Source: a virus
Direction: 5' to 3' (one strand)
Length of the DNA: 64,000 nt
Virus record (IMG/VR): IMGVR_UViG_3300048583_000056
Coordinates: 1-64,000 of that record
Shown: positions 4,736 through 8,236 of the stretch, piece by piece
Numbering within the stretch: position 1 is the first letter of the stretch
How the letters are laid out: each line of letters starts with the position of its first letter
Program-made: the position numbers and the translations under genes
The notes under the pieces: model-generated
What the model was told of the DNA's origin: nothing
Seen by the model: the letters and a program-made list of their open reading frames with translations, nothing else
Databases searched by the model: none

Positions 4736-4763
4736 ATTAAAGCATATATTTTCACCAAGTCAA
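4736..4763 (-). promoter_or_regulatory. early-type promoter for the ATPase cassette
   Basis: Minus strand TTGACT (4758-4763), 16 nt, TTTAAT (4736-4741), 6 nt to the GTG start. The -35 lies inside the 3' end of the neighbouring late gene. Confidence 0.65.
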
Positions 4764-5257
4764 GGTTTTTTCTTGACGGTCTTATATTTTGTTGGTCTTC
4801 GAACATTTAGCCTTGATGTATCGTTGGCGGAAGTGTTGATAATCTTAAATTGATTATCCTTGTTGAAGATGAAACTGAGTTTTCTTTTGGGATCACCATA
4901 AGGCTTTCCGCTTTTGGTGTGACCAATGATTCTAGACCCGATAACAACTTTATTTTTACCGGATTTGGTAACACCTTTACTCATATCCATGATATATCCA
5001 GCATCTAAAAGAATATCTTTGTAAGCTTTTTGGAGACCACCAGAACCAACATCATAACCTTGTCTGATGGCATCACCAACATCTCTTGCACCTGCTTCGA
5101 GTTTATCCAAAGGATTTGTGATCTCTGGAGCGACTTTACGTAATAGTGAAGCACCACCTTTAACAGCAGCACCAGCTACGCCACCAGCGACTCTCAAAGG
5201 AGCAGAGATATTACTCCAGAACCCTTCAGATAAAATTTCTCGTTGAGTTAATTTCAT
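4760..5257 (-). CDS. putative capsid-targeted virion protein
   Basis: 165 aa, not assigned to a family. The N-terminus MKLTQREILSE-GFW fits a capsid-targeting peptide ending in a [L/I]-x-E cleavage motif. Residues ~15-60 are Gly/Ala/Val-rich (GGVAGAAVKGGAS), resembling the protein at 53217-53831. The C-terminal half is basic (pattern KSGKPYGDPKRK). Its ATG overlaps the previous stop (ATGA). Inference: an internal head or DNA-binding virion protein. Confidence 0.65.
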   Translation of the reverse strand: MKLTQREILSEGFWSNISAPLRVAGGVAGAAVKGGASLLRKVAPEITNPLDKLEAGARDVGDAIRQGYDVGSGGLQKAYKDILLDAGYIMDMSKGVTKSGKNKVVIGSRIIGHTKSGKPYGDPKRKLSFIFNKDNQFKIINTSANDTSRLNVRRPTKYKTVKKKP

Positions 5258-5697
5258 ATATAATCAGCGTTTAAATTTTTATCTGCCACATTATTTAACC
5301 CAACATCTATAAGGGCATCTAACTCATCCAAAATAAATTGCTTACCGATCAAAACTTTGTGATTGTTTTCAGAACGATTACCGATTGAGAACGGAATATT
5401 TTTGAATGTTCTATTCCCAAGCTTAACATCAAAATTTACAACGGGTCGTTCCTCTTTGTTGCCAGCACCTAAGTTGATAACAATCGTATCACTTACAGGC
5501 TTCTCAATACTGATACCGCCATCGGTTGTAAACCTGACAGTCGAACCATCAGTTTGTATATCTTCACCATGTAAAACGTTAAACGCGCCATTTCCAGAAT
5601 CTAGTTTAGCTTTAAACGCACCCACTCCGTCAATATGGATAATTTCTTCCAAACCTAATACAGTTTTCTCTAGATAAAATTGTTTGAAAGTTATCAT
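5254..5697 (-). CDS. retropepsin-like aspartic protease fold (RimB/PF05618-like)
   Basis: 147 aa. VGAFKAKLDSGNGAFN (25-40) matches the strand-turn of retropepsin-like proteins (usual form AKIDTGA), with DSG at 33-35 as the catalytic Asp triplet. The later VLIGKQFILDEL (115-126) matches the family's second hallmark (LLGR-x-FL). Length fits a single-lobe enzyme that works as a dimer. The N-terminus (MITFKQFYLEKTVLGLEE) resembles the capsid-targeting leaders of its neighbours. Inference: a protease packaged in or acting on the head. The substrate is unknown, and fold without activity is possible. Confidence 0.7.
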   Translation of the reverse strand: MITFKQFYLEKTVLGLEEIIHIDGVGAFKAKLDSGNGAFNVLHGEDIQTDGSTVRFTTDGGISIEKPVSDTIVINLGAGNKEERPVVNFDVKLGNRTFKNIPFSIGNRSENNHKVLIGKQFILDELDALIDVGLNNVADKNLNADYI

Positions 5698-5701
5698 TCA
5701 T

Positions 5702-6106
5702 TTACATGGAGATATTATCGGAATCTTCAAATCCGTCGTTAGCAAAGTCCGCGACATCGTCTAGTTCATTCCAAACATCAGAGATATAATCTTCAGCTTT
5801 GATGATCTTAGCAACCATCCAAGTTTCCAATTCTTCTGATTCACAATGACTTAGCAGAATGTTTGCACGTTTGACGAGTTTACGGAGACATTTCGTGATG
5901 ATTTCGTTATCTAGTTCATCTTCTTCTCCAAACATATCATCACCAAGGTCTTCTTCGGTTCCAGTGTCTAAAGGACCAACTGGTTCCATAGAGATAATAG
6001 CTTCTGCGTCTTCAGGGTATTGCTCCTGTGAATATTGTGCATCAGGACTTTTGTTCCCATATGATTCCCAGATCAAACTATTTTCAAAAGTTTTAAATTT
6101 TTTCAT
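5702..6106 (-). CDS. acidic late virion-associated protein
   Basis: 134 aa, strongly acidic in the middle (EEDLGDDMFGEEDELDNE). The leader MKKFKTFENSLIWE-SYG ends in an I-x-E motif like T4 internal-protein leaders. The C-terminal segment VAKIIKAEDYISDVWNEL resembles a short helical motif common in small structural proteins of T4-like marine phages (from memory, not searched). A TAAATA box lies 5 nt upstream of the ATG, marking it as late. Probably a head-core or internal protein. Confidence 0.7.
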   Translation of the reverse strand: MKKFKTFENSLIWESYGNKSPDAQYSQEQYPEDAEAIISMEPVGPLDTGTEEDLGDDMFGEEDELDNEIITKCLRKLVKRANILLSHCESEELETWMVAKIIKAEDYISDVWNELDDVADFANDGFEDSDNISM

Positions 6107-6111
6107 AATAA

Positions 6112-6117
6112 TATTTA
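6112..6117 (-). promoter_or_regulatory. late TAAATA promoter
   Basis: TAAATA on the minus strand, 5 nt before the ATG at 6106. Confidence 0.7.
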
Positions 6118-6118
6118 A

Positions 6119-6496
6119 TTAAACTGATTCAATACTGTTTAATTGCTTGCGAAGATCTCCACCAGAAGTAGAAGAAGCAATAATCCCTAGGATGCTTGGG
6201 AGAACTTCTTCTCTAGCATTTGTATACTTCTTCATTTTCATTTGAGATTGAAGATTTAGTAAAGTGTTTGCTTGTTCGGCAGAAGGTTCAAAAAGTGCGG
6301 CATCAATCAAATCAGAAATATACTTATCTTCTCCAGCAGATGACAACGGCATTGTTTCTTGTGGGGGAGGAGCAGGATTATCTATGACGCTTCCAGCTTG
6401 CTCTGGTGGGGCTTCATGACCCTGTGTAGGATCTTGTCCATCTTGTTCCACCAAAAATCTTTGATAGTCTCGGATTAGTTGTAAAGTTTTGCTCAT
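6119..6496 (-). CDS. hypothetical late protein with targeting-like leader
   Basis: 125 aa, not recognised. The leader MSKTLQLIRDYQRFLVE-QDG ends in L-x-E. A Pro/Gln/Glu-rich, probably disordered linker (residues ~18-50) follows, then a helical C-terminal domain. It sits 2 bp after the stop of the upstream gene, whose TAAATA promoter probably serves both. Likely another internal head protein. Confidence 0.65.
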   Translation of the reverse strand: MSKTLQLIRDYQRFLVEQDGQDPTQGHEAPPEQAGSVIDNPAPPPQETMPLSSAGEDKYISDLIDAALFEPSAEQANTLLNLQSQMKMKKYTNAREEVLPSILGIIASSTSGGDLRKQLNSIESV

Positions 6497-6498
6497 GA

Positions 6499-6942
6499 TT
6501 AATAATTAGTTGGGATTGTGCTAGTGCGTCTCGTGTTTTGAAGTGCCTTTTCGATTTCTCTAGTGCTGTCCTCATATGTCTTGACAGCTTTTCCAGCAAT
6601 ATTTTGACGTTTCTTAACAGCGGTCTTAGCTCTTTGTGCAGAAGTTCCTAAGCCTCTTGCAGCTAATCCTTTTAGTCCAGAATTTGCTTTAGCTCCAAGT
6701 TTTTCAACTTCTTGATCGACTTTGTATGCACCAGTTCCAGCTTCAATACTTTCAGCTTCTTCCTCATTACCAGAGATGTTGACAGCAATGGTTTTGCTAC
6801 CAGTATCAATGTAAAGCATATCAGTATCCCTAACCAAGGATACTTTGATTCCTTTAGATTTCAGAAAATCTATCAATTCCCACTTGGGATCACCGGAATT
6901 TTGTGGATTGAATTCTTCGATTAAATGAAGGAACTTACTCAT
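6499..6942 (-). CDS. hypothetical late protein with targeting-like leader
   Basis: 147 aa. The leader MSKFLHLIEE-FNPQN ends in I-E-E. Residues ~20-60 look like a small alpha/beta domain; residues ~75-135 are rich in Lys, Arg and Ala and probably helical and DNA-binding. Late TAAATA box 5 nt before the ATG. Family unknown; internal capsid protein is the best guess. Confidence 0.65.
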   Translation of the reverse strand: MSKFLHLIEEFNPQNSGDPKWELIDFLKSKGIKVSLVRDTDMLYIDTGSKTIAVNISGNEEEAESIEAGTGAYKVDQEVEKLGAKANSGLKGLAARGLGTSAQRAKTAVKKRQNIAGKAVKTYEDSTREIEKALQNTRRTSTIPTNY

Positions 6943-7700: not shown

Positions 7701-7728
7701 CTTATACCACATTAAAAATTAAAGTCAA
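7701..7728 (-). promoter_or_regulatory. early-type promoter
   Basis: Minus strand TTGACT (7723-7728), 16 nt, TATAAG (7701-7706), 7 nt to the ATG at 7693. The -35 lies in the 3' end of the GIY-YIG-like gene. Confidence 0.65.
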
Positions 7729-8236
7729 GCTTGAAGTTTTTGTATTTCTCTCTTAAATGAGCAGGCATTTTACATAAACGAATATTAATTATGCCATTTA
7801 GGTAATCATCAGAAGAAATTGCATTATTTTGTAGTTGATATAATAACTCTAGAAAAGAGGCTTCCCATTTACACGATGCTACATCTAAAACTTCTCTAGT
7901 AAAGTTTTCTTTACCAAATTCTATTAAGTCTTTTTTTAATTGCTCAGAAGAGCCATAATATTGCATGTAATTACTTGGTTTATTAATCTTTCTCTTTCTT
8001 TTTGTTCCCTTTAATGGTGGTTTAGTTAATTTGCTCCACAATTGACACTTACCTATATACTTCTTACCAGTAATTGTATTGGTAATGCAATAAATTATGC
8101 TGAAATGTTCAGTTTCATTTATGTTTTCTGGTAAATTTACCCAATCGCTCATGGGATTACTTAGCTTTTCAGGAACAAAATCCTTAAGTACAATATAGTC
8201 GCGTAGCGACAGAGTAAGGTAGCTATAACTAGCCAA
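7712..8236 (-). CDS. GIY-YIG-like endonuclease, putative homing enzyme
   Basis: 174 aa. IIYCITN...KKYIGK (47-63) is a GIY-YIG-type strand pair with degenerate GIY. YYGSSEQLKKDL and FGKENFTREVL follow as in free-standing phage endonucleases, and an acidic/aromatic helix (ASFLELLYQLQ) completes the core. There is no NUMOD3 tail, unlike the two other homing genes here. The first ~28 residues (LTLSLRDYI...) are coded partly by a palindromic repeat and may be leader rather than protein; an internal Met at residue 29 (about 8152) is an alternative start. Confidence 0.65.
   Translation of the reverse strand: MASYSYLTLSLRDYIVLKDFVPEKLSNPMSDWVNLPENINETEHFSIIYCITNTITGKKYIGKCQLWSKLTKPPLKGTKRKRKINKPSNYMQYYGSSEQLKKDLIEFGKENFTREVLDVASCKWEASFLELLYQLQNNAISSDDYLNGIINIRLCKMPAHLREKYKNFKLDFNF
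8198..8210. repeat. GTCGC-GTA-GCGAC palindrome, copy 1
   Basis: A perfect 5-bp stem with a 3-nt loop. It is GC-rich in an AT-rich region and lies near the 5' end of the GIY-YIG-like gene. An identical copy is at 8477-8489. Confidence 0.6.

Follow-up and report, generated by a model that had tools for sequence, protein, structure and literature searches.

Retropepsins of the RimB and RloA types have been characterised only recently, and in bacteria. RimB of Pseudomonas fluorescens trims the polyglutamate tails of ribosomal protein S6, is dead as the D31E variant, and in a second role binds and stimulates RimK (PMC11957791). In RloA, residues K46, R114, and R137 contact polyglutamate, and activity is cut most by the R114A and R137A substitutions (PMC12239564). 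Contiguous glutamates are needed by both enzymes, about six by RimB (PMC11957791) and eight by RloA, which left a mixed DDDDEEEDDD stretch uncut (PMC12239564). In phage T4, the 10 N-terminal residues of IPIII are enough for targeting to the head, and the capsid-targeting sequence (CTS) uses residues 4 and 7 for targeting and residues 8 and 10 for processing (PMC9026906). Here we describe a retropepsin-like gene with a CTS-like leader in IMG/VR virus record IMGVR_UViG_3300048583_000056, of which positions 1 to 64,000 (64,000 nucleotides (nt); hereafter the window) were analysed. The literature that we searched held no description of the function of phage PF05618 proteins, the family in which we place this one.

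The encoded protein is almost certainly a PF05618 retropepsin. Its residues 27–140 match the family profile (E=8e-10; score 39.2 bits, cut-off 27), and RloA 9g58 is its closest chain by sequence in the Protein Data Bank (PDB; E=7e-6). An AlphaFold2 monomer model built on a 28-sequence alignment (pLDDT 82; below 50 for residues 1–9) has a retropepsin fold, and Foldseek matched it to RloA 9g58 (E=1.6e-9), then to the Legionella DUF785 protein 2pma, RloA2 9g59, and HIV protease 3el4 (E=5e-4). A first scan of viral contigs returned 39 relatives with 55–75% identity, and a profile scan gave 226 confirmed stretches, 80 of which were kept as loci. All conservation counts refer to 40 sequences. None of these departs from D33, G35, N36, G37, H43, K31, R84, or R108; at position 34, 32 carry Ser and eight carry Thr, and VL[IV]GK is nearly invariant. 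Given the PF05618 score, the match to the RloA chain, the many relatives, and the invariant D33, the family match is not a chance one. The first-pass annotation, made from the sequence alone, had proposed a PF05618 retropepsin-like protease with DSG at residues 33–35 and VLIGKQFIL at residues 115–123, and had named structure prediction as a check. Its open reading frame (ORF) and both motifs were exact (on the minus strand, the annotation having given none), and the family profile, the predicted fold, and the invariant catalytic Asp all agree with its assignment. A fold lacking retropepsin geometry would have refuted the assignment, but the monomer model matched RloA, DUF785, and HIV protease best and so did not do so. 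The protein is a probable homodimer, which would have one D33 per subunit.

Patterns of this phage branch returned 74 stretches and 0 relatives from GTDB contigs. A search of predicted viral structures gave an uncharacterised protein of an uncultured phage as best match (45% identity), and further matches carry the names 'ATP-dependant zinc protease' or 'acid protease'. The family is thus already present in databases. PHROGs held no family for the retropepsin-like protein, nor for most of its neighbours.

Alignment to 9g58 equates RloA K46, R114, and R137 with K31, R84, and R108 of the phage protein. The distances counted in 9g58 from D to R (66) and from R to R (23) equal those in the RloA numbering. 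The conserved contact residues support, but do not prove, an acidic substrate of the same kind. With RimB the phage protein shares the PF05618 family, a catalytic D-[ST]-G, a small stand-alone domain, and the probable homodimeric state, but it differs in its leader, in D-[ST]-G-N, and in having no rimK or rimA beside the gene. RloA and RloA2 (Pseudomonas; 9g58, 9g59; PMC12239564) provide the best PDB matches by sequence and fold; RloA, however, is periplasmic and carries a signal peptide, in place of which a T4-CTS-like leader is found in the phage protein, and D-[ST]-G is followed by Ala in the RloA proteins and by Asn in the phage protein. The ORFs of 40 amino acids (aa) or more in the window and in two near-complete relatives (195.5 of about 197 kb covered) contained no run of at least five Glu. 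If the specificity is conserved, the substrate would therefore be a post-translational glutamate tail.

The leader is an add-on of 9–10 residues (nine in 11 of the 40 sequences) that ends just before the retropepsin domain. Position 4 is F and position 7 is F or Y in 40/40, position 8 is F, Y, or I, and the terminal E is kept in 40/40; the residue two before this E is mostly F or Y, and Lys follows it. The T4 internal proteins IPI, IPII, and IPIII likewise have a 10-residue leader with aromatic residues at positions 4 and 7 (MKTYQEFIAE in IPIII and MITFKQFYLE here), although they are not proteases. A leader profile trained on the retropepsin family only, run against 65 T4 proteins, ranked IPI first, IPIII third, and IPII fourth, with vs.7 as the sole intruder. 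A regular expression that covers both patterns by design matched only IPII and IPIII among the same 65 proteins. At the gene starts of relatives, a simple leader expression was only modestly enriched (3/277 and 6/305, versus 2/800 and 1/815 at internal Met), so that the argument relies on the profile trained on the family and on the residues mapped by mutation in T4. The capsid-targeting type of leader claimed in the first-pass annotation is thus upheld as a resemblance, at T4 residues 4 and 7 and in the ranking of T4 proteins, while packaging itself goes beyond this evidence. We nonetheless consider it likely that the retropepsin is packaged as head cargo.

The same leader type was also seen on further operon proteins of the relatives, which include the nucleotidyltransferase-like c12 and c24 (PF01467 for c24), the DUF6267 protein c11, the RNA-ligase-like c25 (below the cut-off), and c29. 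In the interval upstream of the acidic gene described below, with the flanking genes unchanged, some relatives encode proteins with an F-K-x-[FY]-F-E-type leader (L034:1874-4110, L039:1273-2034, L028:3669-4970, L023:4448-4948); these are DUF6267, cytidylyltransferase-like, or RNA-ligase-like, and one is of no assigned family. The position looks like an exchangeable cargo slot, which would be empty in the window.

Of the 38 relatives with upstream sequence, 37 encode a homologue of a very acidic protein immediately before the retropepsin gene; in the window, the acidic gene lies 4 nt upstream. The motif YTAAATA resembles the late promoters of T4-type phages and cyanophages. The window contains 39 such sites, 19 of which are located 12–17 nt before a start codon versus 0.29 expected. 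For two relatives, G002 (L051-L060) and G012 (L061-L070), the distances peak at exactly 12 nt (31/65 and 30/45, respectively); T4 TATAAATA sites lie at least 20 nt from start codons. Going upstream from the retropepsin gene, the first such site precedes the acidic gene, and so the retropepsin is probably transcribed late, together with the acidic gene. If T4 late-promoter geometry holds, transcripts would start on or next to the AUG, which would make these late mRNAs leaderless.

The domain is also found in other phages. In Pelagibacter phage Mosig (QOI68969, L001:5017-6402) and Yersinia phage YerA41 (QSM00767, L131:4851-6272), a PF05618 domain with D-T-G-N is present, but as the C-terminal part of a RimK ATP-grasp ligase. 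This is the reverse of the order in bacterial RimBK, where RimB is at the N-terminus (PMC11957791). The Mosig fusion starts with MQVQPFKNYLEEA, in which FKNYLEEA is leader-like, and it scores like the leader proteins. The T4-CTS-like start (LTQKFSQFITEE) of a RimK-like ATP-grasp protein from phage Melnitz-3 (L132:82-1131), which is without a retropepsin domain, also scores like the leader proteins. Cyanophage RimK proteins (S-RIM8, S-RIM32) have little room for a leader before the match. The YerA41 fusion is called a 'structural protein' in its record annotation, which is the one lead towards a location in the virion; the YerA41 study reports 63 particle proteins by liquid chromatography–tandem mass spectrometry (PMC7354516). 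In addition, an uncultured 636-kb phage (LR756504, L135:2761-3420) encodes a 219-aa PF05618 protein (E=2e-13) with D-S-G-A and an N-terminal extension of ~90 residues.

We tentatively favour a RimB/RloA-type, polyglutamate-directed retropepsin that is packaged in the head, ejected, and acts on a polyglutamylated host protein. A stand-alone PF05618 endopeptidase of a deep T4-like phage lineage would be made late in infection, and its leader would dock it into the prohead core, as the leaders of T4 IPII and IPIII do. It would then stay in the head, enter the next host with the DNA, and there, as a homodimer, cut polyglutamate, presumably to the benefit of the phage. The likeliest target would be glutamate tails made by host RimK-type ligases on S6 or another host protein. 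That the protein acts on a polyglutamylated host protein at all is a possibility that we hold a little more loosely.

Several observations weigh against this reading. The leader junction, FxE↓K, departs from the L/I-x-E sites of T4 (IAE↓A in its internal proteins), whereas a T4-like site, IEE↓AG, is retained in the major capsid protein of a relative; removal of the leader is therefore doubtful, and it may stay on. No match to rimK (PF08443) was found in 24 records of relatives, many of them fragments. Without a phage RimK, the polyglutamate would have to be host-made, and because no rimK partner was found in these records the protein is not filed as RimB proper. The YerA41 fusion, in turn, has neither such a leader nor a lysine before D-T-G.

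The enzyme may instead be cytoplasmic and unpackaged, in which case the leader would be a helix that docks onto a partner, and polyglutamate would be trimmed late to retune host ribosomes. The late-promoter-like site on the operon and the binding and stimulation of RimK by RimB are consistent with such a role, as are the FxE↓K end of the leader and packaging that is no more than probable. However, the leader resembles those of T4 head proteins and not a docking element specific to one protein, and the same leader type stands on unrelated operon enzymes of relatives (DUF6267, cytidylyltransferase-like, RNA-ligase-like); we regard a cytoplasmic role as unlikely. It is very improbable that the retropepsin fold serves binding only, as a non-catalytic polyglutamate- or RimK-binding protein. 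The stimulation of RimK by RimB (PMC11957791) and the Asn after D-[ST]-G, where RloA proteins carry Ala, would suit such a protein, but the catalytic Asp and Gly are invariant and residue 34 alternates between Ser and Thr as in active aspartic proteases.

A packaged maturation enzyme is a further alternative, in which the retropepsin would cut acidic core or scaffold proteins in the prohead core, e.g., its acidic neighbour, alongside gp21. The leader resembles those of T4 head proteins, a very acidic protein is constantly adjacent, and acidic glutamate runs are what RimB-type enzymes cut. T4 gp21 (PF03420) is likewise a protease residing in the prohead, the location proposed for the retropepsin, but it has an unrelated serine-protease fold, and the two co-occur in relatives: of 17 records, nine encode a gp21-type prohead protease, among them all three of ~200 kb. 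Because of this co-occurrence, the retropepsin would be an addition to gp21, and its replacing gp21 was rejected. The gp21-type protease already present in the ~200-kb relatives speaks against a maturation role, as do the lack of Glu runs of at least five in the window and two relatives, when RimB and RloA need about six and eight, and the mixed acidic stretch left uncut by RloA. Head maturation, one of the two roles suggested in the first-pass annotation, is accordingly disfavoured and, in our judgement, quite improbable. Its other suggestion, action inside the new host cell, is the better of the two, with the polyglutamylated host target being what we infer.

The retropepsin gene, which starts with ATG, and several small conserved genes are all on the minus strand (Table 1); the plus strand in the same frame has many stops. 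The retropepsin stop overlaps the start of the downstream gene (ATGA). Neither the acidic upstream gene nor the downstream gene had a match among reference phages. A GIY-YIG endonuclease of the SegE type (PF19835, E=4e-24; 7712-8236, minus strand) has a conserved position in the same gene cluster of relatives.

Table 1 Features of the retropepsin locus, in positions of the window.
Feature	Position	Strand	Evidence or remark
Retropepsin-like coding sequence, PF05618, 147 aa, 10-residue leader	5254..5697	minus	ORF, profile, alignment, fold model
Leader MITFKQFYLE (residues 1-10), T4 capsid-targeting-sequence-like	5668..5697	minus	Short helix, low confidence in model
Catalytic motif D33-S34-G35	5593..5601	minus	D33 kept 40/40
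K31, equivalent of RloA K46 (polyglutamate contact)	5605..5607	minus	40/40; alignment to 9g58; PMC12239564
R84, equivalent of RloA R114	5446..5448	minus	40/40; alignment to 9g58; PMC12239564
R108, equivalent of RloA R137	5374..5376	minus	40/40; alignment to 9g58; PMC12239564
VLIGKQFIL (residues 115-123), second retropepsin landmark	5329..5355	minus	Sequence and alignment
Acidic 134-aa protein, 35 D+E versus 11 K+R, start MKKFKTFENSLIWES	5702..6106	minus	
TTAAATA late-promoter-like site, 12 nt before acidic-gene start	6112..6118	minus	
Downstream gene, 165 aa, start MKLTQREILSEGFW; conserved neighbour	4760..5257	minus	
125-aa conserved neighbour, retropepsin operon	6119..6496	minus	
147-aa conserved neighbour, retropepsin operon; TTAAATA 12 nt before start	6499..6942	minus	

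That a widespread T4-like lineage packages and ejects a polyglutamate-directed retropepsin, which on entry removes the glutamate tails of the host ribosome or of some other host protein, is, as a complete chain of events, a speculative proposal and rather unlikely to hold at every step. If true, the protein would be a virion-delivered eraser of a protein modification. The conserved contact residues, together with the T4-type leader, suggest that polyglutamylation in the host is manipulated by some phages as they enter, and our results support the view that T4-like phages use the capsid-targeting leader as a general tag for loading different enzymes, which they swap.
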